Positions 356 to 35,462 of a DNA stretch of 42,785 bases are shown one piece after another (positions within the stretch are counted from its first letter, which is position 1; each line of letters begins with the position of its first letter). The notes below the pieces were generated by a model, which saw only the letters and a program-made list of their open reading frames with translations, ran no database searches and was not told where the DNA came from. This stretch comes from Planctomycetota bacterium (lineage in GTDB: Bacteria; Planctomycetota; Planctomycetia; Pirellulales; Lacipirellulaceae). The translations under genes were made by a program, and so were the position numbers. Location of the stretch: positions 1 through 42,785 of the forward strand of contig JAADGD010000014.1 of the NCBI GenBank assembly GCA_013152515.1. The letters are read 5' to 3'.

Positions 356-3300
356 ATGAACCGCATTCGAAGTATAGCGACACTGCTGCTGGTGTTGGGG
401 TCCACGTCTATCGCGTTGGGCGAGGAGCCTCTGGAGTACAATCGCGACATTCGGCCGATTTTGGCGGAGAATTGTTTCGCGTGTCACGGGGCTGATAGCG
501 CTTCGCGCAAGGCGGAGCTGCGCCTTGATCGGCGTGAGGAGGCCGTTGATGCTGGCGCGATCGCGCCGGGCGATGCGGGCGAAAGCGAATTGATCGCGCG
601 GATTCTTTCCGACGACCCCGATCTGCTGATGCCGCCGGCCGAGACGAAGAAAGTGGTGACGCCTCAGCAGCGAGAGTTGCTTCAGCGGTGGATTGACTCG
701 GGCGCGGAATATCAGCCGCACTGGTCTTTTATCGCGCCTCGTTTGCCCGAGCCACCTGCCGTCAACAACGAAATGCAGGTCCGCAATGTCCTCGATCGTT
801 TCATTTTTGCGAGGTTGCAAAAAGAAGGGCTTACGCCGGCAGCCGAGGCCGATGCGCGAACGCTCTTTCGTCGGCTGCACTTGGACATTACCGGACTGCC
901 GCCGAAGCCAACCGACTTGGCGGCGTTTGTTGCTGATTACGAGTTGCGCAAAGACTTGGCACTTTCGGCATGGATCGACCGTCTGATGGAGTCGACCGCT
1001 TGGGGCGAACACCGCGCGCGGTACTGGCTCGATGCGGCCCGCTACGCCGATACGCATGGGCTGCATTTTGACAATTATCGCGAGATGTGGCCCTATCGCG
1101 ATTGGGTGATTCGGGCGTTTAACGCCAATCAGCCGTTTGATCAGTTTATTCTCGAACAACTTGCCGGTGATCTGCTTGCGAAGCCTAGCGACGATCAGCT
1201 GATCGCGACCGGTTTTCAGCGCTGCAACATCACGACGAACGAAGGGGGTACCATCGATGCCGAAAATTTAGCGATTTACGCCACCGATCGCGTCCAGACG
1301 TTTGGCTGGGTGTTTCTTGGTTTGACGACCAATTGCGCGCAGTGCCACGATCACAAGTTCGACCCGCTCACGATGCGCGACTTCTATTCGTTGGCCGCAT
1401 TTTTCGGCAATACGACTTCGCCGGCAAAAGATGGCAACACGAAAGATGGCAAAGGCCCCGTCCTGCTGGTCCCTTCCGAGGCGGACCGCCCGCGTTGGGA
1501 ATCGTTGCCGGCTGAGATCGCCGCCGCCAAGTCGCAACGCGACGAGCGAAAAAAGCAGTCGACCGGCGACTTTGAGAAATGGCTGATAGCGGCGACGCCC
1601 AGCGAAATTCCTGGCGTACCTAACGAGGGGCTGGTGCTTCATCTGCCGCTGGATGAAGGAAAGGGCGACGAGGTGCGAAATCTTGCCGGCTCGACCAAAA
1701 GCTTTCGCGCCGAGAGCGCTGTCGAGTGGCAGGCGGGCGGAAAACTTGGCTCGGCTCTACGAATCAAGGAGGGCAGCACCTTGAATCTTGGAGACCTGGG
1801 CGACTTCGAGAAGGATCAAGCTTTCAGCTACGGGGCTTGGGTCATGACCCCCGAAAAAGTCGCCAAGCGTGGCGTGAATGCTGCGATTTTGGCGCGCATG
1901 GACGAGGCGAACGGCCATCGGGGCTGGGATCTTTGGCAGTCGGGCAACACGCTGTCGGTTCACTTGATCGATTCGTGGGACGGCAATGCGTTGAAGGTTT
2001 CGACGAAGCAAGACGTCGTGGTTCCCGGCAAGTGGCAATACGCTTTTGTGACCTACGATGGCTCTGCGGATCCCAGTGGCATAAAAATTTACTTGGATGG
2101 TGTGGCGCTGCCGCTTCGCGTGGCGAAAAACACGCTGCAAGAGAACGCGACGATTCGAGCGAAAACACCGCTGCGGATTGGTCAGCGAAGTAGCGCAGCG
2201 GTGTTCGAGGGTGGATTGGTCCAGGAGGTGCGAATCTACGATCGCCTGCTCGACGACGACGAAGTCGGCGTTCTCGCCAAAGCGGCCGAGGTTCGCGCAG
2301 TGCTGGCCAAAGCTGCCGGTGACCGTAGCAAGGAAGAGCAAAATGTCTTGCACGATTATTTTTTGGTGACGAGTGACGAAGTCTTTGCTGGATTCGCCCA
2401 AGCTCTCCAAAACCTGGAAGCAGAGCAAGTGGCGATTCGGCAGCGGAGTCCGGTTACTCTCATCCAAAAAGAAAAGTCCGACTCACCCCCAATGGCGAAC
2501 ATCTTGCTGCGTGGAGCCTACGACCGAGTTGGCGAAGAGGTGAATGCTGCGACTCCCGCCGCCCTGCATTCTTGGCCCGAGGGAGCGCCGCACAACCGAC
2601 TGGGGCTGGCGATGTGGGTGGTTGATCGTAGCAATCCTCTCACGGCACGCGTGACGGTCAATCGTTTTTGGCAAGAAATTTTTGGCCGGGGAATTGTGGA
2701 AACGCCCGAGGATTTTGGCACTTCCGGGAGTTTGCCGAGCCATCCCGAGTTAATAGATTGGTTGGCGTGCGACTTTGTGGAATCGGGATGGAATGTCCAA
2801 CGCTTCTTCAAGCAAATTTTCATGAGCGCAAGCTATCGACAGGCAGCCGCAACGACCCTCGAAAAACTAGAGCGTGATCCAGAAAACATCCTGTTGTCGC
2901 GGGGACCGCGGTTCAGAATGGATGCCGAGATGGTCCGCGACACGGCGCTGTCCGTCAGCGGCTTGCTTTCGCCGCGGATGTATGGACCGGGGACGAGGCC
3001 GTATCAACCCAGCGACATCTGGAATGTGGTCGGTTTGTCCAATGGCGACACGCGCATTTACAAGCAAGACCAAGGCGAAAACCTCTATCGCCGGACGCTG
3101 TACAATTTCTGGAAGCGCATGGCCCCGTCGCCCAACATGGAAGCCTTCAACGCTCCCAGCCGCGAAGTTTGCACAGTGCATCGCGAACGGACCAACACGC
3201 CGCTGCAAGCGCTCATCACGCTGAACGACCCGCAATTTGTCGAGGCGGCGCGTCGACTTGCAGAAAACGCTCTTCGCGCAAGTAGCGGCGACGAGAGTAT

Positions 3301-3541
3301 GACCCTGAGCTATATCGTCGAGCGTGTCCTTTCACGGCCTCTGACCCCCAACGAGCAAACGCTCGTCTTGACAGCTCAAAAAGACTATCTCGGCTACTAT
3401 CAAAAAAACCCTGACGATGCCGTGGCGCTGATCCACGTCGGAGATAGCAAGCCCGACGCAGACCTCGGCGCTGCTACCTTGGCGGCATGGACGATGGTTT
3501 GCAACCAAGTGTTGAATCTGGACGAAGCGCTCAACAAGTAG
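356..3541 (+). CDS. PSCyt1 / DUF1549 / DUF1553 planctomycete cytochrome-like protein with internal LamG-like (concanavalin) domain
   Basis: ORF 257-3541; likely start at internal Met (356) giving signal peptide MNRIRSIATLLLVLGSTSIALGEE; CxxCH heme motif (CFACHG), second CAQCHDHK motif, C-terminal PSD1-like '[27 protein letters not shown]'; middle 'LVLHLPLDEGKGDEVRNLAG...VQEVRIYDRLLDDDEV' is LamG-like. Confidence 0.9.
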   Translation: MNRIRSIATLLLVLGSTSIALGEEPLEYNRDIRPILAENCFACHGADSASRKAELRLDRREEAVDAGAIAPGDAGESELIARILSDDPDLLMPPAETKKVVTPQQRELLQRWIDSGAEYQPHWSFIAPRLPEPPAVNNEMQVRNVLDRFIFARLQKEGLTPAAEADARTLFRRLHLDITGLPPKPTDLAAFVADYELRKDLALSAWIDRLMESTAWGEHRARYWLDAARYADTHGLHFDNYREMWPYRDWVIRAFNANQPFDQFILEQLAGDLLAKPSDDQLIATGFQRCNITTNEGGTIDAENLAIYATDRVQTFGWVFLGLTTNCAQCHDHKFDPLTMRDFYSLAAFFGNTTSPAKDGNTKDGKGPVLLVPSEADRPRWESLPAEIAAAKSQRDERKKQSTGDFEKWLIAATPSEIPGVPNEGLVLHLPLDEGKGDEVRNLAGSTKSFRAESAVEWQAGGKLGSALRIKEGSTLNLGDLGDFEKDQAFSYGAWVMTPEKVAKRGVNAAILARMDEANGHRGWDLWQSGNTLSVHLIDSWDGNALKVSTKQDVVVPGKWQYAFVTYDGSADPSGIKIYLDGVALPLRVAKNTLQENATIRAKTPLRIGQRSSAAVFEGGLVQEVRIYDRLLDDDEVGVLAKAAEVRAVLAKAAGDRSKEEQNVLHDYFLVTSDEVFAGFAQALQNLEAEQVAIRQRSPVTLIQKEKSDSPPMANILLRGAYDRVGEEVNAATPAALHSWPEGAPHNRLGLAMWVVDRSNPLTARVTVNRFWQEIFGRGIVETPEDFGTSGSLPSHPELIDWLACDFVESGWNVQRFFKQIFMSASYRQAAATTLEKLERDPENILLSRGPRFRMDAEMVRDTALSVSGLLSPRMYGPGTRPYQPSDIWNVVGLSNGDTRIYKQDQGENLYRRTLYNFWKRMAPSPNMEAFNAPSREVCTVHRERTNTPLQALITLNDPQFVEAARRLAENALRASSGDESMTLSYIVERVLSRPLTPNEQTLVLTAQKDYLGYYQKNPDDAVALIHVGDSKPDADLGAATLAAWTMVCNQVLNLDEALNK

Positions 3542-3548
3542 GTTTCCG

Positions 3549-4982
3549 ATGATGAACGACATGCACACTCGACGACAATTCCTCGCTAGTGGCAAACACC
3601 TCCTGGGGGGTGCCGCCCTGGCGTGCCTTCAAGGCGAGTCTGCCTTCGCGGCAACTGGCGCGCGAGTCCCGGCGCCGCATTTCGCACCGCGTGCCAAGCG
3701 GGTCATCTATCTGCACATGGTCGGCGGGCCTTCGCAAATGGATCTGTTCGACTACAAACCGCAGATGAACGATTGGTACGACAAAGATCTGCCCGAATCG
3801 ATTCGCAAGGGCCAGCGGCTAACGACCATGACGAGTGGACAGGCACGTTTTCCGATCGCGCCGTCGAAGTATCGGTTTCGTCAGGCGGGGCAATGCGGCC
3901 TGTGGATGAACCATGAGTTGTTGCCCCGGCTGTCAGAAAAAGCTGACGAGATTTGCTGGATGCGTAGTCTGCACACCGAAGCGATCAATCACGAACCGGC
4001 CATCTTAGCAATGCAGACAGGCAACCAAGTCGCTGGGCGGCCTTGTCTGGGATCGTGGGCATCGTACGGGCTGGGGGCGATCAACGAAAACCTGCCGGCG
4101 TTTGTGGTGCTGGTTGCCATTCCGAGCAACCGCGATCAGGAACAAGCGATCTCGTCTCGGCTGTGGGGCGCTGGCTATCTGTCGGGCGAACATGCTGGGG
4201 TGTCGTTCCGGAGCAAGGGCGATCCGATTCTTTACATCAACAACCCGCCCGGCGTCTCCAGCGCAATGCGTCGACGTTCGATCGATGGCATTAACGCGCT
4301 GAACGAGATCAACTACCGCCACCTGGGCGACCCCAGTACGCACACACGAATGCAGCAGTACGAACTGGCGTTTCGGATGCAGGCGAGTGTGCCGGAGCTT
4401 ACCGACTTCGCCAGCGAATCGGCACACACGTTTGAGCTTTACGGCGAGGCGGCCAAAAAACCAGGCACGTTTGCCAATTCGGTGCTGATGGCGCGGCGAT
4501 TGGCGGAGCGAGGTGTGCGGTTCGTCCAGATTTATCACAACAATTGGGACCATCACAGCAATGTCAGTGGCCGGATGCCGAGCCAATGCCAAGACGTCGA
4601 CCAACCGTGCTACGCACTGCTCGAAGACCTCAAGCAACGTGGGATGCTCGACGATACGCTCGTGATTTGGGGCGGCGAATTCGGTCGGACGATCTATTCG
4701 CAGGGCCAGCTCTCGATGACCAACTACGGTCGCGATCATCACCCGCGCTGTTTCAGTATGTGGATGGCGGGCGGCGGTGCGAAGGGCGGCACGATTTATG
4801 GCGAAACCGACGATTTTTCGTACAACATTGTGAAAGATCCGGTTCATATCCGCGATTTCCACGCCACGATTTTGCATCTACTGGGCTTCGACCACGAGCG
4901 ATTTTCGTACCGTTTCCAAGGACTAGATCAACGACTGACCGGCGTACTGCCAGCTCGAGTTATTCCAGAGTTGCTAGCGTGA
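3549..4982 (+). CDS. DUF1501 domain-containing protein (sulfatase-like fold), Tat-like N-terminus
   Basis: N-terminal TRRQFLASG; 'VIYLHMVGGPSQMDLFDYKP', '[19 protein letters not shown]', 'GRDHHPRCFSMWMAGGG' typical of DUF1501; 8 bp after the PSCyt1 gene. Confidence 0.9.
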   Translation: MMNDMHTRRQFLASGKHLLGGAALACLQGESAFAATGARVPAPHFAPRAKRVIYLHMVGGPSQMDLFDYKPQMNDWYDKDLPESIRKGQRLTTMTSGQARFPIAPSKYRFRQAGQCGLWMNHELLPRLSEKADEICWMRSLHTEAINHEPAILAMQTGNQVAGRPCLGSWASYGLGAINENLPAFVVLVAIPSNRDQEQAISSRLWGAGYLSGEHAGVSFRSKGDPILYINNPPGVSSAMRRRSIDGINALNEINYRHLGDPSTHTRMQQYELAFRMQASVPELTDFASESAHTFELYGEAAKKPGTFANSVLMARRLAERGVRFVQIYHNNWDHHSNVSGRMPSQCQDVDQPCYALLEDLKQRGMLDDTLVIWGGEFGRTIYSQGQLSMTNYGRDHHPRCFSMWMAGGGAKGGTIYGETDDFSYNIVKDPVHIRDFHATILHLLGFDHERFSYRFQGLDQRLTGVLPARVIPELLA

Positions 4983-5011
4983 ATGGTTTTTAGGTTTGTG
5001 ACTTGATACAA

Positions 5012-5085
5012 CGTAGGATAGGCTTCTAGCCTGTCCGTCCAGGTAGTACGTGCCCTTTACGGACAGGCTAGAAGCCTATCCTACG
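5012..5085. repeat. Perfect 27-bp inverted repeat, family 'CGTAGGATAGGCTTCTAGCCTGTCCGT'
   Basis: Arms 5012-5038 and 5059-5085 are exact reverse complements; a second copy of the family lies at 20860-20953. Confidence 0.95.
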
Positions 5086-5134
5086 ATTGCTCTATGATTT
5101 TAACGCCCGCGAAACAACATTTCTGTATAACCCG

Positions 5135-8100
5135 ATGACCCGAATTAGACTCTTGTTTTGTGCGATCCTGATTGGCTTCCCGACGGTCAGTCAGGCGGAG
5201 TCGCCCATTGATTTCGATCGCGACATCAAGCCCATCCTTTCCGACAACTGCTATCACTGCCACGGTCCCGACAGCGAGAGCCGTGAGGCTGAGCTGCGCC
5301 TGGACCAGAAAGATTCGGTCTTTTCTGAGCGGGATGGCTATTGGATCGTTCAGCCCGGCAATCTCGGCGAGAGCGAGCTGATCGCTCGGCTCGTGACGAG
5401 CGATCCTGACGAGCTGATGCCGCCGGCGGAATCGGGGAAAGAACTGACCGCCGAGCAGATCGAGCTGATGCGTCGTTGGGTTGCTGCCGGTGCACCGTGG
5501 AAAGAACACTGGTCGTTTGTCCCTCCCACCAGACCGCAATTGTCGAACCTCGAACATCTGGAAGGGGCGCGCAACGAGATCGACTATTTCATCGCGCAAC
5601 GTCTCGCAACCGCAGGACTCAAGTCGGAACCGATGGCGGATCGTCGTACTTTGGTTCGCCGGTTGCATCTCGATTTGACGGGGCTCCCTCCTACGGCTGA
5701 GCAAGTCGAGAAATTTCTCGCGGATAACCGTGAGGATGCTTACGAGCGACTGGTCGAAGAGCTGTTGGCTTCGCCCCATTTTGGCGAACGGATGACGGTC
5801 GCTTGGCTCGATCAAGCACGCTATGCCGACACGAACGGTTTTTCGATCGATGGCGGGCGGCATATGTGGCTGTGGAGAGACTGGGTCATTCACGCCTACA
5901 ACGGAAATATGCCGTTTGACCAATTTGTGATCGAACAATTGGCCGGCGACTTGTTGCCGAACGCGACGACCGATCAACTCGTCGCGACCGGTTTCAACCG
6001 AAATCACATGATCACGCACGAGGGAGGTACCATCCCGGCAGAAAATTTGGCGAACTACGCGTCCGATCGCGTGCGGACCACCGCCGAAGTCTTTTTGGGC
6101 CTCACGATGGGTTGTGCCCAATGCCATGACCACAAATACGACCCACTCACTCAGCGTGACTACTATCGCTTCCTCGCTTATTTTAACACGCTCGAAGACA
6201 AAGGCCTCGACGGGAACAGCGGGGTCAACTCCGTTCCCAAAACGCAGGCGACGTCGATTCTCGGTCGCGACCAGATCGAAGCGCGGCAACTACGCCGTCA
6301 GTTGCAGGTTCTCGAGCAGCAACAGCAGTTGCCTCTCGGCAGCCAAGCGGCCTGGGAAGAGCAAGCCCGTCGCGAAATCGCCGAGCTAGGCCAAGACTTG
6401 GTGCTGGTTCCGGCGGAGGTGATTAACGTCTCTTCGCCCAATCGGATCTCGGAGTTCGAGCTGCGCGACGACGGTACGCTGTTTCTCAAAAATGGAGGAG
6501 GACGCTCGCCTTCGATCACAGCCAAAATCACGCAAGAAAATGTGACTGGTTTGCGGCTCGTGTTTTATCCTGATCCGAGTTTCGAGCGAGGGGGGCTGGG
6601 TTATGGCAAGAAAGAGGGTCTGGAAGGAAGCTTCCTCCTAACGTCGATGTCGGTCTCGGCCACGGTTGCGGAGCAAGTCGATTTGTACGAGATGATCGAC
6701 ATTCGCAGCGCCACCGCCACCGCCTCGCATCCCGATCACCCAGCAGTTGATTGTCTTACCCCAACCGATACCGAGGGCTGGTCACCTGGCACCGGTGTGA
6801 CTACGCCGCAAAGCATTACTTTTCAGTTTCAGCGACCGATCCATGCGTCGGAAACTCCGTACCTGACCGTGATGCTGGTTTGGGGAGGCGGCAGAAGCCT
6901 GCAAGGCGGGAAATGTCGGATTTTCACTCTCAGCGGAAATGACGATCAATCAAACATCCCGCTAGAGGTGCGAGAAATCCTCGAGGTCTCCCCCGATCAG
7001 CGTACTCCACAGCAGGGCGAACGCCTCCGCAGTTATCACGTCAGCGTCGCGCCCGAACGGGCGAATCTGCGTTACCAAATAGCCAACCTCAAGGAACGGC
7101 TAGAAACCCTCACAGGCAAGTACGATGTGATGGTGATGAATACCGCCAAAAAACCGCGCAAGACGCACATTCTGAATCGGGGGCAATACGATCAACCGGG
7201 CGAGGAAGTCACCGCCGGCGTGCCTGCGGGCTTGCCTCAGCCACCACCCGGCCTGCCGGACAATCGACTTGGGCTGGCTCAATGGTTGGTTGCCCCCGAT
7301 CATCCGTTGACCTCGCGCGTCGCGGTGAATCGTCTTTGGCAATTGTTTTTCGGTCGCGGGATCGTCGCCACGTCGGCCGATTTCGGCTCGCAAGGCGCAC
7401 CGCCGACGCATCCCGAATTGCTCGATTGGTTGGCGCGCGAGTTCGTCGACAGCGGCTGGGACGTCAAACATGTGGTCAAGACGATGGTGATGTCAGCCGC
7501 TTATCGGCAGAGTTCAGTGACATCGCCCGAAAAGCTTGAAGCCGATCCCTACAATCAATGGCTATCGCGAGGACCACGCTTTCGACTAGAGGCCGAGTTC
7601 GTTCGCGATTCGGTACTACAAGTGAGCGGCCTGCTGGCAAATCGCATCGGCGGCCCCAGTGTTCGACCGTATCAGCCGCCCAATCTGTGGCGAGAAATCA
7701 GCCACTACGGTAGCTCGCCCGCGACGGCTCAGGTGTTTGTCCAAGATCATGGCGAACGGCTTTATCGCCGCAGCATGTATACTTATTGGAAACGAACCGT
7801 ACCGCCCCCTTCGATGATTAGCTTCGATGCCCCCAGCCGAGAAACTTGCTCGATGCAGCGCGAGCGGACGAACACGCCGTTGCAGGCGCTGGTGATGCTC
7901 AACGATCCGCAGTTTGTCGAAGCGAGCCGGAAGTTCGCCGAGCGAATCCTTCATTCGAGTTCCGAAACCGACGCACGCATCCGTTTTGCGTTTGAGCAAG
8001 CGCTCGCACGACCTCCAAGCAACGAGGAATTGGAAATCGTTCGTCAAACCTTGCAGCAAGAGCTACAACGATTTCGCGAAGACCCTGCTGCGGCGGCGGA

Positions 8101-8218
8101 GTACCTTGAATATGGCGAATCTGATCGCGACCCCGATTTGGCAGTCGAAGAACACGCCGCGTGGACGACTGTCGCCACGCTGATTTTTAATTTGAGCGAA
8201 ATGATCACCAAAGGTTAA
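5135..8218 (+). CDS. PSCyt1 / DUF1549 / DUF1553 planctomycete cytochrome-like protein (second paralogue)
   Basis: ORF 5087-8218; likely start 5135 ([22 protein letters not shown] signal peptide); CYHCHG heme motif, [21 protein letters not shown]-terminal [27 protein letters not shown]. Confidence 0.9.
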
Positions 8219-8225
8219 TGGACAA

Positions 8226-9674
8226 GTGAGCATGAACCAACTCAGCCGCAGAGCATTTTTGTCACGACAAGCAGGCGGACTTGGCCAAATTGCCTTGGGG
8301 TCGCTGCTGCTCGGTGGCACCGGCATGGCAAAAGGCGCGCAGGGAAAATCTCTGGGACTCGAAGGGTTGCCTCACTTCGCACCCACGGCGAAACGCGTGA
8401 TTTATTTGTTTCAGTCGGGCGGCCCTTCGCACTGCGACTTGTTTGACTACTCGCCTGCCATCGACAAGCTACAAGGCACCGAATTGCCGCCGAGCGTGCG
8501 TGGCGATCAACGTGTCACGGGCATGACCTCAAGTCAGGGAAGCTATCCGGTCGTCGCGCCGATGTGGAACATGAGCCGGTGTGGCGAACGGGGCACTTGG
8601 ATCAGCGACCTGCTGCCCTATACGCAAAAAATTGCCGACAAGATCGCCATCGTGCGATCGGTGCATACCGAGGCGATCAACCACGACCCGGCTGTCACTT
8701 TCATCAACACCGGTTCGCAACAACCGGGCAATGCCAGTATGGGTGCCTGGCTCAGTTATGGTCTGGGTAGCGAAAACGAAAACCTACCCGCCTACACCGT
8801 TTTGATGTCGCAAGGTTCGGGGAAGAACCCGGGGCAGCCGTTGTTTTCGCGACTTTGGGGAAGCGGTTTTTTGCCGTCCAACCATCAAGGGGTAAATCTC
8901 CGGCCTGGGGCCAACCCGGTCTTGTACTTAGCGAACCCAAAAGGAATCACCTCAGAGAGCCGGCGGGCGATGCTCGACCAACTTGCGCAACTCAACGATT
9001 TGCAGGCTCAAGAGACGGGCGACCCCGAGATTCCTGCTCGCGTGGCGGCTTATGAAATGGCCTTTCGGATGCAGACCTCGGTTCCGAGTCTGACCGATCT
9101 CAGCGACGAATCAGATTCGACTTTCGATCTGTATGGGCCAGAATCGCGGCGTCCAGGCAGCTTCGCCGCCAATTGCCTGTTGGCGCGACGGATGGCCGAG
9201 CGAGGCGTGCGATTTATCCAGCTTTTTCATCGTGGCTGGGACCAGCATATCGCGATCAAACAGCAGCTCCCCAAGCAATGCCGAGATACCGACCAACCCT
9301 CCGCCGCACTCATTGTCGACTTGCATGAGCGGGGGCTGCTCGACGACACACTGGTGATTTGGGGCGGCGAATTCGGTCGAACCGTCTACAGCCAAGGGGC
9401 CTTGGGGAGCCCGCAAGCAGGTCGCGATCATCATGGCCGCTGTTTTTCGGTCTGGATGGCTGGCGGAGGGGTCAAGCGTGGCTGCGATTACGGCCAAACG
9501 GATGATTTTTGTTACAATATCACCGAAAACCCCGTACATATTAATGATCTCAACGCGACGATCTTGCATTGCTTGGGAATCAATCACGACCGGTTTACGT
9601 TCCCCTTCCGCGGACTCGACCAACGGCTGACCGGCGTGGAAGAGTCGCACGTCGTTCACGGGGTGCTTGGTTAG
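8226..9674 (+). CDS. DUF1501 domain-containing protein (second paralogue)
   Basis: [12 protein letters not shown] Tat-like N-terminus; [39 protein letters not shown]; follows PSCyt1 paralogue by 7 bp; start may be 8232. Confidence 0.9.
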
Positions 9675-22893: not shown

Positions 22894-25800
22894 CTATCTA
22901 CCGATATTCAGTGGCGGAACCGACTGGAACGAGTTTACCGCTTGTTGGGTCGTTTGAAGTCCGGCAATGACTTGCTCTAATTGGAAGAACTGCAGCAGCA
23001 GTCGCTCACGTTGGCGCTCGAGCGATTCGTTGAATCGCTCGATGCGTGCTTCGTTGGCCTCAATGGTTGTTTTTAAGGAGTTGTCTCGTCGGGTCAACAG
23101 ACCGTTTTCTGCTCCGGTTAAGCTTTCAATCGCGGCTTCAAATTTCGCGACGATGCCTTTGTCTTTAGCGGTGAACAGTGTCTGTAAGCTCTGCGAATCT
23201 TTGTCGAAAGCGTCTTGAAGTTTGCCCGAATCGAGTTCCAGCTTGCCCTTTCCATCAACGCTGATGCCGATTTCTTGCAGCGATTGGAAACTACCTAAGC
23301 CAGAATAACGATCGGTGATTAGTCGCGATAATTCCGTATCAACGCGCAGTGCTTCGTTTGTGCCAAACAGCAGCCCAGTCGAGAGGCTCTCTGAGTCGAA
23401 ATCGGTCAGGTTGCTAAGGTCATCACGGAGCGTGTTGTAGGAATCGACAAAGGACTGCACCAAGTCCACGAGCTCTTGGCCGTTTTTTGTGACGCTCACA
23501 TCAACGGCCGCATCACTCGTCGAAGCAGCAGTGAGATCGACGCCATTGATGACCTGCTCGAAGTCGTTGGTCGACGAACTAACCAGCACGCCAGAACCTG
23601 CCGTGTTGCCTGCCCCGACCACCAGCAACGCGTCGCGCGCCGAGCTAGTTTCGCGGAATGCAAAGCCCGAACTGCCCGCGTCGAGCAAAATTTCATTTTC
23701 CGCACCTGTTTTGTCCACCACCAGTTGCAAACGAAAGCCGACGCCATCGTTCAGTACACTGGCGGTTACGCCCGATTCTAGGTTATTGATTTTGGCGGCA
23801 AGATTGGTCAGGGCACCTTGGCTCGCCGTCTGGGCTTCAAAGAGACCGAAGCCGTTGATCGTATTGGTTGTCGAAGCCGTGCTGAGAATTTTGAAGTCAG
23901 CGGCAGCAGTACCGTTGATGTCCTCGACTAGCAAATTGCCATCGCCATTCGCAGTGTCAGTAAGCTTGATACCTGTGCCAGCGCTGTTGATGCTGGCCGT
24001 CAGACCTACTCCCGTTCGGTCGGCCTCGGTGTTGATCGTGTCGATCAATTCGTCGACGGTTTTGATCGTGGAAAATTCGCCGTTCAGGTCTAGGCTAAGG
24101 ACTTTTCCTTGGGAATCGGTGAAGCGAATGTCGCTGAGTGTAACGCCACTGCCGTCGTTAATCGATTCGAGGCTAATCGAGGAGTTTGTCGTACTCAGAT
24201 CGGTCAGATCAATACTGTAGCTGCTGCGGCCGTCGATGACTTGAGTGTCGGTGCCGTTGATGTCGATGGTTTCGCTGGAACGCGTAAGGTTGAGATCTGC
24301 CGCCAATGTGCCGCTGACATCCTCGATCACGATCTTTTCTTCGCCTAACGCAGTGTCAGTGATCAAGATACCATCGCCCGAGTCGTTGATTCTCGCCTGA
24401 ACGCCAATCGTGGCAGCGTTGATTGCATCGATCACATCGCCAATCGTATTGGCTTCGTTGCCCGAGGCATTCAGGTCGATGGCAGTTTGTTTTCCACTAC
24501 TATCAGTAATGCGAATATCGCTGGGAGTGATGCCTTCGCCACCGTTCAGAGACGACAGCAAGGTTGCTTCGCTCAGCGTTTGCCGACCGAGAGAGCCGCC
24601 ATTGACCGAATCGACAGCGGCGTCGATCGTGATTCCCAAAGCATCGGCCAGCGTCTCGGCGCCACCGTTGGCGACAATCAAGTTGCTCGTTGTTTGTCCG
24701 GTGGTATCTGTGAGAACGATCCCGTTGCGACTCGTGTTGATCGTCGCCGTGATCCCAATGGCATCGTTGTTGATCGCGTCGACAACGTCTCCCAACGTTT
24801 CGACTGCGGAAAGATCGACCGTCGAGTTGTCGCCATTGCGATTCGTTAGATCGATATCACCAAGTGGTCCGATTCCTTGTCCACCGTTGAGACTGGAAAC
24901 CAGCGTGTCGCGCAATCCCGAAACCAATCGATTCCCAGTGATCACACCGCCAACTTCGGTCGTGGTTAAGCCGAGGTCGTCAGCAGCAGAACCTGTAGTG
25001 CCATTGGTAACCGTAAACCCAGCACCTACGGTGATGTCGGTCAGTTCTAGGCGATTGCCATCGGCGGAGATCGCAGCAGTCACCTTCCCCGTGAGATCGT
25101 CATCGTTGTTGATCGCATCAACCACATCGCCGAGCGTCGTAGCCCCCGTGAGGTCGACGCCAATGTCGGTTGTGCCGTCATTCAAGGTGAACAGCAGATC
25201 GTCGGGCAGCGTGGTGTCGTCCGTAAATCGTACGCCGTTGCCGTCATTCAAGGCCGTTAGCTTCGTGCCACTGTACAACCCGAAAACATCGGCCCCGGTG
25301 GCCGACGCATTCGTAGTGCTGATGCCCGCCAGACCCAAGTTAGCGGCAGTCGTGCCGCCAGAGACCTCTTGCACGGACAAGGTGCCTCCGCCGCCGACCG
25401 TGTCGGACAACACAAAAGTGTCGCCAACGGTCGAAGCGGTCACGTTGAGCGAAGCTTCGTTGTTGATCGTATCGAGCACGTCGTCCACGGTGCGTGCTAG
25501 GCTGAGGTCGACCGTTGCCGAGTTGCCGGCGAGATCGGTGATTTTAATTTCCCCCCGTTCGACGCCGGCGCCGTTGTTAAGTGCGTCGAGTGAGATGCCT
25601 TTGTCGACAAAGCCGCCAAAGCCGAAATTCAGCGAACCAACACTTTGAATATCGTCGAGAGACTCGAAACGTTGGCTGATGAGTTGCTGTGAACTGGCCG
25701 TTTGCGCCGGGCGGAGCGAAAAATTGCCTAGTGGTGGTTTGCCATCGGAACCAAGTATCGCAGTCAGCACCTCTTCATTTGCTGACGTCACGCTTCGAGC

Positions 25801-26016
25801 CTGAAACGGCGTCGAGACTTTCAGCTTGCCCAAGTCGAACTTCAGGCTGAGAATACGGCTCGATAAGGTGTTGACGGCAATTTGCTGTTGCTGCAACCCC
25901 TGGGTCCGCGACGTCAGCAAGTCGCGCGACCGCCCCGCGACACCGATCAACTGATCGACCGTATCGGTGATCGGTATCCCGGTGATTAGGCCAACATTGG
26001 ATTGTATTCTGCCCAT
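22894..26016 (-). CDS. fliD: Flagellar filament capping protein FliD, enlarged with repeated flagellin-hook-IN-like modules
   Basis: N-term 'LITGIPITDTVDQLIGVAGRSRDLLTSRTQGLQQQQIAVNTLSSRILSLKFDLGKL'; C-term 'YNTLRDDLSNLTDF...LGSFQSLQEIGISVDGKGKLELDSGKLQDAFDKD...ERQRERLLLQFFQLEQVIAGLQTTQQ'; five internal modules of about 90 aa. Confidence 0.95.
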   Translation of the reverse strand: MGRIQSNVGLITGIPITDTVDQLIGVAGRSRDLLTSRTQGLQQQQIAVNTLSSRILSLKFDLGKLKVSTPFQARSVTSANEEVLTAILGSDGKPPLGNFSLRPAQTASSQQLISQRFESLDDIQSVGSLNFGFGGFVDKGISLDALNNGAGVERGEIKITDLAGNSATVDLSLARTVDDVLDTINNEASLNVTASTVGDTFVLSDTVGGGGTLSVQEVSGGTTAANLGLAGISTTNASATGADVFGLYSGTKLTALNDGNGVRFTDDTTLPDDLLFTLNDGTTDIGVDLTGATTLGDVVDAINNDDDLTGKVTAAISADGNRLELTDITVGAGFTVTNGTTGSAADDLGLTTTEVGGVITGNRLVSGLRDTLVSSLNGGQGIGPLGDIDLTNRNGDNSTVDLSAVETLGDVVDAINNDAIGITATINTSRNGIVLTDTTGQTTSNLIVANGGAETLADALGITIDAAVDSVNGGSLGRQTLSEATLLSSLNGGEGITPSDIRITDSSGKQTAIDLNASGNEANTIGDVIDAINAATIGVQARINDSGDGILITDTALGEEKIVIEDVSGTLAADLNLTRSSETIDINGTDTQVIDGRSSYSIDLTDLSTTNSSISLESINDGSGVTLSDIRFTDSQGKVLSLDLNGEFSTIKTVDELIDTINTEADRTGVGLTASINSAGTGIKLTDTANGDGNLLVEDINGTAAADFKILSTASTTNTINGFGLFEAQTASQGALTNLAAKINNLESGVTASVLNDGVGFRLQLVVDKTGAENEILLDAGSSGFAFRETSSARDALLVVGAGNTAGSGVLVSSSTNDFEQVINGVDLTAASTSDAAVDVSVTKNGQELVDLVQSFVDSYNTLRDDLSNLTDFDSESLSTGLLFGTNEALRVDTELSRLITDRYSGLGSFQSLQEIGISVDGKGKLELDSGKLQDAFDKDSQSLQTLFTAKDKGIVAKFEAAIESLTGAENGLLTRRDNSLKTTIEANEARIERFNESLERQRERLLLQFFQLEQVIAGLQTTQQAVNSFQSVPPLNIGR

Positions 26017-26359: not shown

Positions 26360-28858
26360 TTACCGAAGCAAGGCCAAGACGTTCTGCGGGTTCTGGTTGG
26401 CGATACCCAACACGTTCGTGCCCGACTGGACAAGAATTTGAGCCCGTGTCAACTTGGCCGATTCGACGGCGAAGTCAGCGTCACGAATCGAGCTTTCAGC
26501 CTCAGTCAAGTTGACCAAAGTGTCGTTGAGCGCGTTCTTGTTGGTCTCCAGAGTCGTCCGTTGGAAAGCACCCAGTCGACCGCGAAGCGAAGTGACCTGA
26601 TCAATCGCTTCAGCAACAATCTTGGCCGCCCCATTCGGGTCAGCAGTCAAGTCGGCCGAGCCGCCTGAGCCAAGCTGGAACAACTTGCCAGAAACGCCGC
26701 CCAAACGGGCTGTGTTCACACTAGTGACGCCAAGCCGAGCCTGCTGGTTCGACACGACATCTGGACCAAGTTGGAACAAAGCCCCACCGCCGGTGATGTC
26801 GAATTCGATCAAACCGAGGTAATCGGCTTCGACGTTGGCTGTTAGGTCCAAAGTCGCGGTGTTGATCGACAGTTCGTTGCCGTTGCCAGTGGCGGCGATG
26901 CCGTTGACTGTAGCTATGACATCTTCACCGGCGTCCCGCGAACCCGTGCCGATGGCTGTTTTGAAGACACCACCGTCAGCTTCTTCAACCACTTTGAGGT
27001 CGACAAATGCATTCGTACCGTACTCTGTCGAACGTAGTTCAAGGGTTGTGCCATTGGCTGTAGCACTCACACCCGTGGCATCCGATACCAAGTTGACCTG
27101 GTTGATCAGCTCGTTGAGGTTCGTACCAGCTTTGAGATTGAAGACTTCAGCACCGCTGAGTCCTGCGATCTCGATCACGGCGTCTTTGTTCAAACCGCCA
27201 GACGATGCAATACCGCCCGCGATGTTCGATGTACTTGGGCCCGTGTCATCAGTGGTCACATCGGCCTCATAAGTACCACTACCAGCAGTCGAAGTCAATT
27301 CGGCTGTGAAGTCGCCCAATTGGTCGCCGATAGCTGTCGCGATATCTGCCAGTTGATACTGCGAGGTAGCATCGATCGAAACCGTGATGTTGGTTCCGTC
27401 ATCGGCTACCGCAATTTGACCAGCGTTCGTGTTGGTCGTGTTGAATAACAGGTTCCGGTTTAGGTTCGGACCGCTTTTGGTAGCGGAAACCGTGATGACA
27501 TCATCTCCCGCGTCTCGACCACCCGTCAGGTTCGTCAAAGCGGCAGGCGTGTTGTCTAGCGAGCCGTTAAAGCTTCGTGTACTCGCTGTGGTAGCAGTAG
27601 CAACTTCACTGATGGATTGAATCGCAGTGGCGATGTCAGAAACCGACGTCTCCGTGTTACCGGAGTCAACCGCGATTGTGTAACCATCTGTTGCGTTACC
27701 GCTAACCGCAGGCGTTGTGCCAACACCAGCTTGCTCAATGAACGTAATGCTGATGTTGCTATCGGCACCCGCTGTGGCAGTAATCGCAATGCTTTCGGTT
27801 GTGGACGCAGCCAAACCACCCGTTAGCGTATTGCTATCGGTACCTGCATCACCACCCACAGTGACACCTGTACCTGTGGTTACCGTGCCGATAGTAAAGT
27901 CATTAACCGAGCCAACCGTTTGAATCGCACCGATCGCATCAGCGACTTCTTGGACCGTGGCTCCAGGGTTACCGGCAGCCGCATTGTTGAAGTCACCATT
28001 GACGGTGATCGTGTTCGTACCCGAGTCGTACACCGCGGTTGCGATATTGCCCGAATCGTCGTCGTTATCAACAAGCACAATATCGACACCACTGCCTGTC
28101 GCACCTTGAGCACCTGCGGCAGCACCATCGCTGGTTGTGGTGATTTCAATAGCACCATTGGTGAGAGTCAGTGTACCTGTACTTTCACGCTGAGCGACCG
28201 AGAAGCTCACCGAGCCAGAGGCTGTCAACTGTTCGTCAGCGAAGGTGATCACACCCGTAGCGGCGACCGGTGTAACAGATGTCGGAATGTTGGCAACATT
28301 AACCTGAGCCTTTGTTGCAGCAGCGGTGACATTAATGTCGACCGAAGCAACTCCACTGGCACCGAGGTTCGCCTGATCGATCTTGAGATCGCTGAGACGA
28401 CCAAAGTTGGCCGTCGAGTTGGTGATAAAGTCGAGGCTGCCGTCCAGCAACTTACGACCTTGGAACGTCGTCGTCTGGGCGATACGGTTGAGTGCCTCAA
28501 GCGACGAGTCGACTTGCAACTGATTAGCAGAGATCTGCTCTTCGGAAAGGGCACCCGCATTGGCCGACTCGGTGACGAGGCCACGGATATCGTTCAGTAG
28601 CGAGCTGACCTGACCCAACGCACTGTCGGCGGTGGCGATCACTTGGTTGGCACGGTCGGTGTTGCTGATCGCCTTGCGGATCGACGTAATGTCGCTTCGC
28701 AGGTTTTCGCTAGCAATCAAACCGGCAGGGTCATCTTTGCCCGTGTTGATTCGGAGACCGGTACTTAACCGGGTGAGAGCTTCGTTCAAGCTCGCATTCG
28801 AGCGGCCGAGCGTATTTCGGCCAATCAGCGAAGCGACATTTGTGTTAATTCGAGTCAT
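26360..28858 (-). CDS. fliC: Flagellin FliC, enlarged central domain
   Basis: N-term 'MTRINTNVASLIGRNTLGRSNASLNEALTRLSTGLRINTGKDDPAGLIASENLRSDI'; C-term 'LRGRLGAFQRTTLETNKNALNDTLVNLTEAESSIRDADFAVESAKLTRAQILVQSGTNVLGIANQNPQNVLALL'. Confidence 0.97.
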   Translation of the reverse strand: MTRINTNVASLIGRNTLGRSNASLNEALTRLSTGLRINTGKDDPAGLIASENLRSDITSIRKAISNTDRANQVIATADSALGQVSSLLNDIRGLVTESANAGALSEEQISANQLQVDSSLEALNRIAQTTTFQGRKLLDGSLDFITNSTANFGRLSDLKIDQANLGASGVASVDINVTAAATKAQVNVANIPTSVTPVAATGVITFADEQLTASGSVSFSVAQRESTGTLTLTNGAIEITTTSDGAAAGAQGATGSGVDIVLVDNDDDSGNIATAVYDSGTNTITVNGDFNNAAAGNPGATVQEVADAIGAIQTVGSVNDFTIGTVTTGTGVTVGGDAGTDSNTLTGGLAASTTESIAITATAGADSNISITFIEQAGVGTTPAVSGNATDGYTIAVDSGNTETSVSDIATAIQSISEVATATTASTRSFNGSLDNTPAALTNLTGGRDAGDDVITVSATKSGPNLNRNLLFNTTNTNAGQIAVADDGTNITVSIDATSQYQLADIATAIGDQLGDFTAELTSTAGSGTYEADVTTDDTGPSTSNIAGGIASSGGLNKDAVIEIAGLSGAEVFNLKAGTNLNELINQVNLVSDATGVSATANGTTLELRSTEYGTNAFVDLKVVEEADGGVFKTAIGTGSRDAGEDVIATVNGIAATGNGNELSINTATLDLTANVEADYLGLIEFDITGGGALFQLGPDVVSNQQARLGVTSVNTARLGGVSGKLFQLGSGGSADLTADPNGAAKIVAEAIDQVTSLRGRLGAFQRTTLETNKNALNDTLVNLTEAESSIRDADFAVESAKLTRAQILVQSGTNVLGIANQNPQNVLALLR

Positions 28859-29845: not shown

Positions 29846-30325
29846 CTATGCAGTACGTTTCAATGGTAGCGACGGTAGCGATAAGGGAAATTGCACTGGC
29901 AAGTCGTCTTTGGCGATGACTTGGCAGCCCCGACGTCGCTCGACGTTAATCACAAGTGGGGCGCGCAAATTGAGCGTCAATCCCCCTGCTTGGCCCCCAG
30001 CTTGACCGCCCACTTGTTGACCTTGGGCTTGTCGGCTGGCAATCACCACGACCTCGGCATCGCGCGTCGTGGTCAGTTCCAAAAATTGTAGTTCGGCGCG
30101 ATCGATGCGAAGTTGATAGTCGGGCACAAAACGGCGCGGACTCACGACACCTAGCGCGATGTGCCCTTCGTCGAGGCTTTGCAGCCAGCCCAAAGTCGGA
30201 TTCTTCGTGTCGCTCAACACCACCCAACGACGGCAGTGCTCCAACCCGATCAGACCCGATTCAAAGATCAACTCGTCTTGAGAATCGACAGACAGTGTGC
30301 CAAAACGCGTAGTGAATACATCCAT
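29846..30325 (-). CDS. fliW: Flagellar assembly factor FliW
   Basis: 'VDSQDELIFESGLIGLEHCRRWVVL', 'LGVVSPRRFVPDYQLRI', 'LTLNLRAPLVINVERRRGCQVI'; adjacent to csrA. Confidence 0.92.
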   Translation of the reverse strand: MDVFTTRFGTLSVDSQDELIFESGLIGLEHCRRWVVLSDTKNPTLGWLQSLDEGHIALGVVSPRRFVPDYQLRIDRAELQFLELTTTRDAEVVVIASRQAQGQQVGGQAGGQAGGLTLNLRAPLVINVERRRGCQVIAKDDLPVQFPLSLPSLPLKRTA

Positions 30326-30526: not shown

Positions 30527-33106
30527 CTAAAGAAAATCTAGCAGCGAAAGCTGTAAGATATTCGCTGTTGCTCGCAGTGACGCCTCCAGCGAAATCTGCC
30601 GAGCGGTCATCTGCGAAATCGCTTCGACCAGATCGACGTCGATCTCCTCGGACAAGGCCGAACGAATCTGGATCTCTTCGTCTTGCAAGTTGAACTTCGA
30701 AAGTTCTAGGCTACGAAACCGTGTTCCCACATCGGCTTGGGCAAAAGTCACCCGATCGATGTCCTTTTCCAACTTGGCGGCCGCTCGCTCGATCTCAGGG
30801 AGATCGTTCGCAGACAGTGCATCGCGCAGGCGAATCAGCGAAGTGAAGACACTGTCGGTCTCCAGGGCATAGCGGTCTTTGCCCGTCAGCGTGGTCGTAG
30901 GCGAGGACTTGGTGGTTTGACCTTTGTCGAGCAGACCCAAGAACTCGGCTGCCTGACTGCTGCTGATTTTCGTCACGGTCAGATCGCCAACCGAGCTGCC
31001 AGTGTTGTCAATTAGCTCGACTCCATTGCCACTCGCCGCGAGTTGAGCCGTGACCCGTCCCGCGTTGCCTACTGCGTTGTTGATCAAGTCGAGCACATCG
31101 CCAACCGACTCCGCACCGCTCAGATCGATCGCCAAAGCAGTGCCGTCTTTGGCAGTAATGTTAAAATCAATCGAGGGAATCGTCACATCGATACCGCCCG
31201 TCACGGCGAGATCCGCCCCCAACTCCGTGACGGTCAATCGTCCCGTGCCGACGGTGTTGTCGACAAGATCAATGCCGTTGCCGTCGGCGTTTAACTGCGC
31301 AGTGACCAGAACAGGCGCGAGGTTCTCTGCGTCGTTGTTGATCGCATTGATCGTGTCGCTGAGCGTGTTGACGTCTGTCACACTGCTCAGATCGACATCA
31401 AACGCAGTTCCGTCACTGACTGTGATAGTAAGATCGGCCTTTGTAAAGTTCAAATTGACCGCGTCTTTTCTTGGCACGCCGACACCAAAGTTAAAATCGC
31501 TGAGCTTCGTGTCTTCTGTCAACGTGCGAATTCCCAGCTGCGTAGCCGTGGTGCCGCCGTTGATTTCGCCAATCTGAAAATCGTTGCCGCTCAGACGCGA
31601 ACGAATGTTGATGCCCGTGCCCGCAGTGTTGATTTCCGCGAGTAGGCCAGCTTCCGAACGATTGAGCCGATTGAGCAAATCTTCGACCGTCTCGTCGCCG
31701 GTGAATTGGATGTCGTATGTTTCGCCACCGTTAACGACGCGAATGCCTGAACTTTGGTCGAGCGTTTCGCCCGTTCCGCCGGTAGTCGTTGCTGTTGCGC
31801 CAACCGCGACCAAACCGGAGCCTGCCTCGCTCGGAGAACTTGCGTCCCCTTGATCGATTTCAGCGAGAAAGTTCGCATCGGCATTGATCGCGTCCACGAC
31901 TTCTTGAGCAGTCGTATCGCCATCATCGATCGTAATAATGAGCGTCTTGGCGCCGCCATCAAACGCCACACTTACCGGCGAGCCATCGCCACCATCGACA
32001 AAGCTCACCGCCACGTTGTCCAAGCTTGTGCCATTCACACTCGCTTCGATAAGAATATCGTTATTGTCGTTGCTGCCGCCGGAGTTAAGCGAGGCTCGAG
32101 CTTTGGTGCCTAGGAGATCTTCCAGACGAGTTGTCTTGAGCAGCAAAGGATCAAGGTCTTCGCTCACAATTGTCGAAGGGCTTCCAAAGCCGAGCAGCCC
32201 CAACTCGCGCGCCGTGGTACCGGTGCCGACTTCGCTAATCGACAGCGAGTCGCCATCGGACAATTGGATTTGAATCCCATCGCCCGTGATGGTCACGTCG
32301 ACTTGCGAGCCTGTAGGTGGATTGTCTTCGATCAATTTCACCACGTCGCCAATCGTAGTCGCGCGACTCAGGTCCACAATCGCAACTTGGTTGGTGGTTG
32401 TATTCGTAATTTGCAGCGAGCCATTGGGGTTGATCCCACGCCCGCTGCGCAGACTACTAAGCCGTGTCTCCGCATTGACCGGTGGGTTTAGATCGATCGT
32501 GCCCTCGACGGCAGCGGAAATGCCCCCGAAAACCTCTTGACCCGAGATGCTCGACGAGAACAAAACGCCAATATCAGAGTAGTTGCGAATCTGGCGGTCG
32601 TCGCCTTGGTAGACGACATTGTCGCCTTCGAACGTGTAGGGCTGTACGTTCGTCTGCGAACCAGAAAAAAGGTAGCGTCCATTGAATTGTCGATTCCCCA
32701 AAGTCACCAGAGAATCGAGCGCGGCGTTGATCGTGGCAACCGCCGCTTCTCTTTCCTGGTCTGTGGCAATGGTGCCGATAACTCCGAGCGTATCCGCCTT
32801 GATCTGACTGAGCGCATTGGCAACACCTTCAGACCCACCCAACGTCGCATCGGTACTTCCCAAGAAGAGGAGCCCACTGTCGATGTTCGATCCCAACTGT
32901 TCTTTGCGGGAAAGCAATCGTTGAAACGAAATCGCCCGCAGTGCCGAAGGCGCATCCTCGCTGGGCAGCGTAATCCGCAGCCCGGTGCTGATCTGTTCCT
33001 GCAAACGAAACAGATCGAGCTGATCGGCCTGGTACTGCTGCGTCAGCCGCTGTCGGGCTAGCAGCCCAGAGATACGCGTGGTCGGAACAGGAGGAATTCG
33101 GGACAT
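30527..33106 (-). CDS. flgL: Flagellar hook-associated protein 3 (FlgL), enlarged
   Basis: N-term 'TTRISGLLARQRLTQQYQADQLDLFRLQEQISTGLRITLPSEDAPSALRAISFQRLL'; 'GNRQFNGRYLFSGSQTNVQPY'; C-term 'LSEEIDVDLVEAISQMTARQISLEASLRATANILQLSLLDFL'. Confidence 0.95.
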   Translation of the reverse strand: MSRIPPVPTTRISGLLARQRLTQQYQADQLDLFRLQEQISTGLRITLPSEDAPSALRAISFQRLLSRKEQLGSNIDSGLLFLGSTDATLGGSEGVANALSQIKADTLGVIGTIATDQEREAAVATINAALDSLVTLGNRQFNGRYLFSGSQTNVQPYTFEGDNVVYQGDDRQIRNYSDIGVLFSSSISGQEVFGGISAAVEGTIDLNPPVNAETRLSSLRSGRGINPNGSLQITNTTTNQVAIVDLSRATTIGDVVKLIEDNPPTGSQVDVTITGDGIQIQLSDGDSLSISEVGTGTTARELGLLGFGSPSTIVSEDLDPLLLKTTRLEDLLGTKARASLNSGGSNDNNDILIEASVNGTSLDNVAVSFVDGGDGSPVSVAFDGGAKTLIITIDDGDTTAQEVVDAINADANFLAEIDQGDASSPSEAGSGLVAVGATATTTGGTGETLDQSSGIRVVNGGETYDIQFTGDETVEDLLNRLNRSEAGLLAEINTAGTGINIRSRLSGNDFQIGEINGGTTATQLGIRTLTEDTKLSDFNFGVGVPRKDAVNLNFTKADLTITVSDGTAFDVDLSSVTDVNTLSDTINAINNDAENLAPVLVTAQLNADGNGIDLVDNTVGTGRLTVTELGADLAVTGGIDVTIPSIDFNITAKDGTALAIDLSGAESVGDVLDLINNAVGNAGRVTAQLAASGNGVELIDNTGSSVGDLTVTKISSSQAAEFLGLLDKGQTTKSSPTTTLTGKDRYALETDSVFTSLIRLRDALSANDLPEIERAAAKLEKDIDRVTFAQADVGTRFRSLELSKFNLQDEEIQIRSALSEEIDVDLVEAISQMTARQISLEASLRATANILQLSLLDFL

Positions 33107-33177: not shown

Positions 33178-34890
33178 TTACAAATTCACCAGCAAATCAA
33201 GCAAATCAGACAACGTGCTGATGTACCGTGCCGACGCTTGAAAGGCTCGTTGGAGCTGGATCATATCGATCGCTTCTTCGTCGAGGTTCACTCCGCTGAC
33301 CGACTGTGCCTCGGCTTGGAGTGTGCCCTCAAAAATGCGCAACCCATCAGCGACCGAGGCGGTGGTTGTCGCGCCTTGCGTTGTCATGTCGATCAACTCT
33401 TTATAGATCCCGACGATCGATTGCCCGTCTTGACCGCTGAGGATTTTGTCTTGAATCTCAGAGAGTTGAAGTGCATTGTCGGCATCGACGTTGATACCGT
33501 TCAAACTAGCCGCAAACTTCTTGCCGTCGGACAGAATCTCTTGGTTAACGCCTAAGTCTCTCGCATTCGACCCGGTGAAAAAAGTATTGACCCCGAGCGC
33601 TGCCAGGACGCCGCTGCTGTCTTTTTCAAAGCTAAATTCTATGTCTGCCGGAGATTCGGAGTTGATCACCAGCTTGTTGTCGAGCGAAACCGAAGCGGTG
33701 ATGCCACTGATCGCGTCCAGCTGTGCTGCCAGCGAAGTCAGTGTTGTGGGGCTACCGTCTGTGCCGAGTAAATCAACCTTGATCGTTTGTCTTACGGTGT
33801 CACCATTGCCATCGATGTTTTTGTTGTGAATGAGTACGTTGAATTCGCCCTGTTGTGGCGCGAAGTCGAGCCCTGCTGCATCGAGCGCCGCCTGCGGATC
33901 ATCGACTTGATAAGTGCCTGTCAATGACGTAAAACCAACCTCGCCCTGCCCTTGCGAATACGCCTTGTTGAACTCAAACGCTAACGCGCCGGCAAACTCG
34001 TCGAGTCCCGTCAGAAAACCGCCCAGGATGTTGTCGCGTGCCTCGTAAATGCCGCCCAATTCGCCGCCGCTAACGATCAACTCGCCACCATCGTCGGCAA
34101 ACACGATACGGTTATTGACGGTGCCCGAATCACCATTCTGTTCACTGACGACTTCTTGTCGCGTGCCCTCGAAGACAAGGAACCTGCCATTGAGCGAGAT
34201 GTTCACCACGCCCCTGCCACTTTCGTTGATGTCGACGTCGGCGATCTCGGCCAATCGTTTCATGGCATTGCTACGTTGACTCCGCAGTCCGCCCGCGTCG
34301 CTACCCGAAGCGCCACCCCCTTCGATTTGCACGATCCGCAGATTCAATTGTCGGATTTCTTCGGAGACCGTATTGATCTCATCAGCTAGCTGACTCACGC
34401 GCGTGTTGAGATTGCCGAACTCCGTGTCGATGCGCCGCCTTGTGGTGAGGATCGTCTGAGCCAGTTCCTCACCCGCGCTGATTGCTAAGTTTCGATGTGC
34501 GGGTTCTTCGGGCTTCTGATTGATCAGCTGAATCGCGTTAAAAAAGTCGGTAAGCTTCGTCGAGATATTCGCGTCGCCGAGCGGATTAAGAATCACCTCC
34601 AGATTGCGATACGCAGCCTCTTGAGCTTCTGCACTGGCACGATCGCCACCCGCATCGCGCAGACGCTCTTCGGCAAACTTGTCGATGATCTGGACGATCC
34701 CGGTGATCTCGACACCCAGTCCCAGTGTCAAGTTGCCCAGTTTTTGCACTGGCGCAGGCGCAAAAACCGCCCGCTCGCGGACGTAGCCGGGCGTGTTCGC
34801 ATTGGCGATATTGTTGCCGACCACCTGCAGACCGATTTGCATCGCCTGCAGCGTGTTGCCCGCCATCTGAAGTGAGCTGAAGAGTGACAT
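33178..34890 (-). CDS. flgK: Flagellar hook-associated protein 1 (FlgK)
   Basis: 'SLFSSLQMAGNTLQAMQIGLQVVGNNIANANTPGYVRERAVFAPAP'; C-term 'SGVNLDEEAIDMIQLQRAFQASARYISTLSDLLDLLVNL'. Confidence 0.97.
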   Translation of the reverse strand: MSLFSSLQMAGNTLQAMQIGLQVVGNNIANANTPGYVRERAVFAPAPVQKLGNLTLGLGVEITGIVQIIDKFAEERLRDAGGDRASAEAQEAAYRNLEVILNPLGDANISTKLTDFFNAIQLINQKPEEPAHRNLAISAGEELAQTILTTRRRIDTEFGNLNTRVSQLADEINTVSEEIRQLNLRIVQIEGGGASGSDAGGLRSQRSNAMKRLAEIADVDINESGRGVVNISLNGRFLVFEGTRQEVVSEQNGDSGTVNNRIVFADDGGELIVSGGELGGIYEARDNILGGFLTGLDEFAGALAFEFNKAYSQGQGEVGFTSLTGTYQVDDPQAALDAAGLDFAPQQGEFNVLIHNKNIDGNGDTVRQTIKVDLLGTDGSPTTLTSLAAQLDAISGITASVSLDNKLVINSESPADIEFSFEKDSSGVLAALGVNTFFTGSNARDLGVNQEILSDGKKFAASLNGINVDADNALQLSEIQDKILSGQDGQSIVGIYKELIDMTTQGATTTASVADGLRIFEGTLQAEAQSVSGVNLDEEAIDMIQLQRAFQASARYISTLSDLLDLLVNL

Positions 34891-34976: not shown

Positions 34977-35462
34977 CTAAACTGCCCGGTCCATCAACGA
35001 ACCGCTGTTGTCGCTAGATCCGTCTTTTCCATATGTCGGCTGTAGTTGGCCGCCAGTCGCAATAATCTCGAGCATGTGAGAAAGATGTAGCACCGTGCGC
35101 TGAACCACGACCCACTGCGAGATGCTTTGATGCCGAAGCAATTGCGTCCGCCGGTTCGACTCCTCTAGCGGCTGTTGCAGGCTTTGCGCCTTTTCCGAGG
35201 GCAATGCTTGCGTCAACGACTGAATGCTATCAGCTGGCAAACCTTGCTCGGCGGCCCGCTCGAGTAACTGCTGGCGGTACTCGTGACATGCTTGCAGTTC
35301 CGCACAAAGGCTCTCTTCCTGAGAAGCGAGCGCTGTCAATCCTTGGTGATCGCGCTTCATCAGCAGATCATGCTTTTGCGAAAGCAAACTTAGCAGTTGC
35401 TCTTGAGAGGAGGCCAGCCGTTCCAGTAACTCGGCCAATTCCGATTCCCATTGGATGTCCAT
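34977..35462 (-). CDS. flgN: FlgN-like flagellar chaperone
   Basis: Coiled-coil-rich 161 aa protein 'LAELLERLASSQEQLLSLLSQKHDLLMKRDHQGLTALASQEESLCAELQACHEYRQQLLE', between flgJ and flgK. Confidence 0.75.
   Translation of the reverse strand: MDIQWESELAELLERLASSQEQLLSLLSQKHDLLMKRDHQGLTALASQEESLCAELQACHEYRQQLLERAAEQGLPADSIQSLTQALPSEKAQSLQQPLEESNRRTQLLRHQSISQWVVVQRTVLHLSHMLEIIATGGQLQPTYGKDGSSDNSGSLMDRAV

Follow-up and report, generated by a model that had tools for sequence, protein, structure and literature searches.

The hook-filament junction protein FlgL encoded in a contig of a Planctomycetota bacterium is, judged from its sequence, an ordinary FlgL frame with five inserted units. Four of them (modules A, C, D and E) are of the IN type that also occurs in the cap protein FliD, and one (module B) is of a type that occurs in the flagellin FliC. 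We propose, with a probability of about 0.7, that the IN units are old and separate in FlgL and FliD, that E was copied internally from D, and that B, which is nearly order-specific, was inserted in the lineage of the order and then dispersed. The origins of flagellar outer domains are little understood because the variable regions of flagellins often lack detectable sequence similarity. Here, relatives of one flagellin module can be followed to FlgL, FliD and an adhesin, and both an insertion site and an outgroup state are available. For this specific example, it should be possible to reconstruct in what succession domains were gained, nested and lost, and to test the result structurally.

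The flagellar locus and the FlgL frame

The window, i.e. the whole stretch of 42,785 nucleotides that was analysed, carries the genes of interest on the minus strand in the order flgN-like, flgK, flgL, fliW, fliC, fliD.

34977..35462, minus strand: flgN-like export chaperone gene (PF05130)
33178..34890, minus strand: flgK, 570 aa; outer part with a remotely IN/B-like core
30527..33106, minus strand: flgL, 859 aa, hook-filament junction protein with five inserted modules (ORF, TIGR02550, Flagellin_N/C)
32507..33106, minus strand: FlgL N-terminal frame, residues 1-200, D0/D1 (Flagellin_N 39.5 bits; model helices)
30530..30889, minus strand: FlgL C-terminal frame, residues 740-859, D1/D0 (Flagellin_C 24.1 bits)
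29846..30325, minus strand: fliW, between flgL and fliC (PF02623)
26360..28858, minus strand: fliC, 832 aa flagellin (Flagellin_N/C)
22894..26016, minus strand: fliD, 1040 aa filament cap protein (FliD_N/FliD_C)

The 859-aa FlgL ORF and all sequence strings quoted in an earlier, sequence-only reading of this DNA are present in the window. The protein matches TIGR02550 (hook-associated protein 3) at 168.9 bits against a cut-off of 127.2, and its ends match Flagellin_N PF00669 (cut-off 26.6) and Flagellin_C PF00700 (cut-off 23). Its gene adjoins flgK on the same strand, directly behind it. The N- and C-terminal flagellin-like regions contain long helices in the FlgL model.

It should be mentioned that flgL is split in the related locus L036 (G007:C36, 11393-14344) into two ORFs of 478 and 504 aa; one in-frame TAG is reported at the break, which may be a sequencing error or genuine. 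Outside the flagellar genes, positions 257-9674 of the window hold a tandemly duplicated gene pair, a PSCyt1/PSCyt2/PSD1 protein followed by a DUF1501 protein, in which the two large PSCyt1/PSCyt2/PSD1 proteins are 44-50% identical. Genes of these kinds mark the DNA as planctomycete.

Four FliD-like units in FlgL

For cross-detection, each profile was built from the repeats of one protein only and was then searched against the other proteins, with reversed proteins, 640 shuffled FlgLs and other ORFs of the loci as controls. The FliD-only profile located the following units.

32195..32467, minus strand: FlgL module A, IN-type, residues 214-304 (51.8 bits, E 6e-16)
31529..31780, minus strand: FlgL module C, IN-type, residues 443-526 (37.2 bits, E 2e-11)
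31214..31510, minus strand: FlgL module D, IN-type, residues 533-631 (52.8 bits, E 3e-16)
30932..31180, minus strand: FlgL module E, IN-type, residues 643-725 (56.7 bits, E 2e-17); sister copy of D
23665..25596, minus strand: six FliD IN-type units, residues 141-229, 251-350, 371-462, 485-577, 614-710 and 719-784

Two FliD-like units in FlgL had been named from the sequence alone; the search finds four, at 37-57 bits, compared to no more than 12 bits for the controls (maxima of 11.6 for reversed proteins, 8.7 for shuffled ones and 7.5 for other ORFs). Alignment of the FlgL and FliD IN profiles with hhalign gave 99.8% probability, in register and over the full length, while reversed or permuted profiles reached 7.3% at most. 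Based on these comparisons, A, C, D and E are homologous to the FliD repeats. Against the Pfam family Flagellin_IN (PF07196), FlgL scores 18.1 bits, below the gathering cut-off of 22.7; FliD scores 43.4 bits, above it.

A unit common to FlgL and flagellin

Module B was located with a profile built from FliC units. It is listed here with the other units of FliC.

31769..32113, minus strand: FlgL module B, FliC-type, residues 332-446 with flanks, profile match 351-444 (38.1 bits; insertion bounds from two outgroup FlgLs)
27815..28117, minus strand: FliC B-type unit 1, residues 248-348
27518..27781, minus strand: FliC B-type unit 2, residues 360-447
27212..27487, minus strand: FliC B-type unit 3, residues 458-549
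27026..27169, minus strand: IN-type unit in FliC (PF07196, 34 bits)

The FliC-only profile detects a single unit in FlgL (E 1e-11), and its control maxima are 9.5 bits for reversed proteins, 11.8 for shuffled ones and 8.6 for other ORFs. The corresponding hhalign comparison gave 99.3%, pairing columns 1-93 of the FlgL profile with columns 1-94 of the FliC profile, again in register and full length. Both results bear out the single FliC-like unit that had been read into FlgL from the sequence alone, and on them B is homologous to the FliC units. Since FliC also has an IN unit, units of the IN type are present in FlgL, FliD and FliC.

The IN and B profiles align to each other at 42-72% probability over 47-71 columns (reversed profiles about 6% at most, permuted ones <1%). 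A hairpin-helix-strand core common to the two types, which would place them in one superfamily, is suggested by these values. The outer part of FlgK is remotely like the IN units of FliD as well as the B units of FliC (hhalign 93% each), a comparison that is partly circular and was not counted as independent, as its FlgK rows were recruited with the B profile. The kinship of FlgK to both module types is probably real, and it could mean that the outer domains of junction and filament are all connected.

Searches of module B against Pfam, the PHROG families and PDB sequences gave no credible match, and a PDB sequence search with the IN and B profiles gave nothing significant. A search for a phage or plasmid source of B returned no usable match. 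One member of the B set is weakly similar to a tail-sheath family of phages (PHROG 279, E 0.003). Foldseek matches of the FliC model include tail-sheath and baseplate proteins, with probabilities up to 0.84.

History of the IN-type units

The terms order and class, as applied to relatives, are the rank codes attached to the genomes; the genomes sampled are mostly MAGs, in which some genes are broken. For 255 IN units, sampled in the order from about 30 genomes, the tree requires three changes of protein label, compared to a mean of 80 and a minimum of 69 when labels are shuffled. The units sort by protein and position into clades. For FlgL, SH-aLRT values are 99 for position 1 (A), 100 for position 2 (C) and 95 for positions 3-4 (D and E together). 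In FlgLs from other planctomycete classes, A, C and D occupy the same slots and follow each other in the same order, and the A, C and D clades take in most of their IN units. Once these outgroups are included, some units of FlgL and FliD intermingle in the unconstrained tree, which then has seven label changes. A single clade of all FlgL IN units is not rejected (p 0.70 and 0.97); with modules of about 90 aa, the deep branching is weak, and a single clade for each protein is neither established nor rejected by AU tests.

Considering that the A, C and D slots are common to other classes, the FlgL and FliD IN units would have been separate lineages before the planctomycete classes diverged, and a swap between FlgL and FliD is not needed. 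The exchange of modules between these two proteins proposed in the sequence-only reading is thus unsupported. The module phylogeny of the IN type is largely that expected if modules diverged before the planctomycetes without exchange, the outcome which that reading had named as contrary to its proposal. Module E is a copy of D made within FlgL, as the tree indicates. A recent transfer of E from FliD into FlgL was considered and ruled out, as E groups with D inside a FlgL clade.

Distribution and nesting of module B

The B profile matches 65 of the 99 genomes of the order. Among 79 genomes sampled across the phylum, strong matches occur only in the window's own genome, with a weak one in one other; in class genomes outside the order, matches come from one genome only, in an ORF of 8800 residues. 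Module B thus appears nearly order-specific and nearly absent elsewhere in the phylum, on a profile built from sequences of the order, which fast-diverged B units elsewhere could escape. No B lies between A and C in the FlgLs of other classes, where A runs straight into C. Aligned to the FlgL of the window, two outgroup FlgLs have a gap at residues 332-446 and 332-441, where module C opens with 'T-L--L-GG-G'. The simplest reading is that B was inserted into FlgL in the lineage of this order.

Module B is also found in the FliD of three families of the order and in a giant ORF, L112 (G196:C64, 5242-18999), which has at least 4586 aa in the stretch fetched and contains GEVED, NIDO, FG-GAP, Calx-beta and SdrD_B domains. 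Of 27 FlgLs of the order, 16 carry a B within a B, the inner copy lying in the β3-β4 hairpin of the outer one (L031, L033-L035, L037, L039, L043, L047, L049, L054-L056, L059, L060, L062 and L063); L063 has two inner copies. The FlgL of L040 is without an inner B, yet the outer one clusters with those of nested forms, suggesting that an inner copy was lost cleanly. On the FlgK tree the nested state changes at least five times. The window FlgL has no inner copy, and a tandem B1/B2 fusion considered for it was dropped, as alignments show the inner B nested in the outer B of relatives.

Part of the proposed module exchange is therefore retained: unlike the IN units, B has dispersed among surface proteins, which is supported in outline by its near order-specificity, its insertion into FlgL and its presence in some FliDs and a giant adhesin. 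It is somewhat doubtful, and put forward here tentatively, that B represents a previously undescribed extracellular domain, nearly restricted to the order, which moves by insertion, including into itself, between junction protein, flagellin, cap protein and giant adhesins. If so, the outer surface of the flagellum would draw on a module pool common to the adhesins of the cell.

Alternative explanations

A different history would have FlgL, FliC and FliD still swapping modules by recombination within the order. The B units of FliD are closest, outside FliD, to FliC units, the adhesin B of L112 is nearest a FlgL B (86 bits) and falls in the FlgL C-terminal-B clade (SH-aLRT 93), and the B tree has nine label changes, all of which such swapping would explain. 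However, shuffled labels give 47 changes, and the nearest relative lies in the same protein for 58 of 59 FlgL, 64 of 72 FliC and all 6 FliD B units. A single clade of all FlgL B units is not rejected by the AU test (p 0.38-0.80), and the IN units show no swaps inside the order. We regard ongoing exchange as unlikely.

Less probable still is that FlgL and FliC each took B from non-flagellar giant adhesins and not from another axial protein. The giant ORFs that hold B, one of them with the adhesin-type domain set of L112, would be the source, but they are few in the 99 genomes of the order, where ORFs of FlgL or FliC size with B are common, and the sole strong copy in a giant ORF seems to descend from a FlgL unit. 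That these β-rich, Gly/Asp/Thr-rich outer domains merely look alike by convergence is very improbable: composition is biased and the repeats are diverged (the other IN units of the window are 21-41% identical to unit A), but the reversed, shuffled and permuted controls fall at least 25 bits short, and the profile matches are full-length and in-register. We therefore favor old, separate IN lineages with internal copying of D into E and a later insertion of the nearly order-specific B. This history also carries a warning that enlarged FlgL and FliD with common IN units need not imply recent exchange.

Predicted structure, enlargement and a possible role of the modules

The AlphaFold2 model of FlgL, computed from 29 sequences (pLDDT 78.9, pTM 0.67), arranges the inserted β-α-β units as a chain. 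The IN units have the order strand-strand-helix-strand-strand-strand, and B has four strands, a helix and a strand. The top Foldseek match of the whole model is Campylobacter FlgL (9gsx). For the FliC model (pLDDT 71, pTM 0.39), matches are to the flagellin of Geovibrio and to D2-D3 structures of FliD.

We propose that the outer (D2-type) region of FlgL grew into this chain of five modules, four of them α/β units of the IN-type family from which FliD forms its outer part. After the split from the FliD units, FlgL would have changed by internal copying of D into E. Module B may then have entered FlgL close to where module C begins, in the ancestry of the order, at the time of its rise in FliC or soon after. 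Later, some lineages may have duplicated it, nested one copy within another or lost it, and in some it may have been copied to FliD and to giant adhesins. Solved junction structures show FlgL as a ring of 11 subunits whose D2 domains point outward (PMC12221982), and D2 has been proposed to stabilise the junction ring (PMC6155364). The modules would likewise project outward from such a ring, so that the filament's decoration would extend onto the junction; they may also form contacts between adjacent subunits or provide a surface that fits the decorated filament. For a role in subunit contacts, as opposed to passive bulk or adhesion, we see a real possibility just short of even odds.

The coordinated enlargement of FlgL, FliC and FliD claimed from the sequence alone holds as a broad trend only. 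Outside the order, FlgL and FliD lengths are correlated (rho 0.72, n=31) and FlgL and FliC lengths weakly so (rho 0.40), both uncorrected for kinship and with some lengths being those of open frames; within the order (n=18) no length correlation is significant. Some genomes outside the order have a FlgL of about 300 aa alongside a flagellin of 740-880 aa. Since giant flagellins are known to form thick filaments (PMC6248924), a thick, decorated filament is plausible in this organism.

Comparison with known systems

Modules A, C, D and E are of the same kind as Flagellin_IN (PF07196) of FliD and flagellins, being repeated and having the IN-motif helix after a β hairpin; the units here are about 90 aa long, compared to a model of 55 positions. 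An exposed outer domain inserted in the D1 frame is likewise found in Xanthomonas campestris FlgL (5ZIZ, PMC6155364), where it is one β-sandwich domain in place of five α/β modules with B common to FliC. The D2 of that FlgL was found alike to FlgK D2 (PMC6155364). Campylobacter jejuni FlgL, in the junction-cap complex 9GSX (PMC12221982), has a similar enlarged size and a bulky outer region, and FliD in that complex has an extra D4. However, the best sequence match to this FlgL is confined to the N-terminal D0/D1 frame and does not extend to the modules.

Giant flagellins with tandem DE regions, which form thick filaments, provide another axial protein that has grown by tandem copying of outer domains, and Planctomycetes are among the lineages listed with giant flagellins (PMC6248924). 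The DE regions were found in flagellins only (PMC6248924), whereas here one module type occurs in FlgL, FliC, some FliDs and adhesins.
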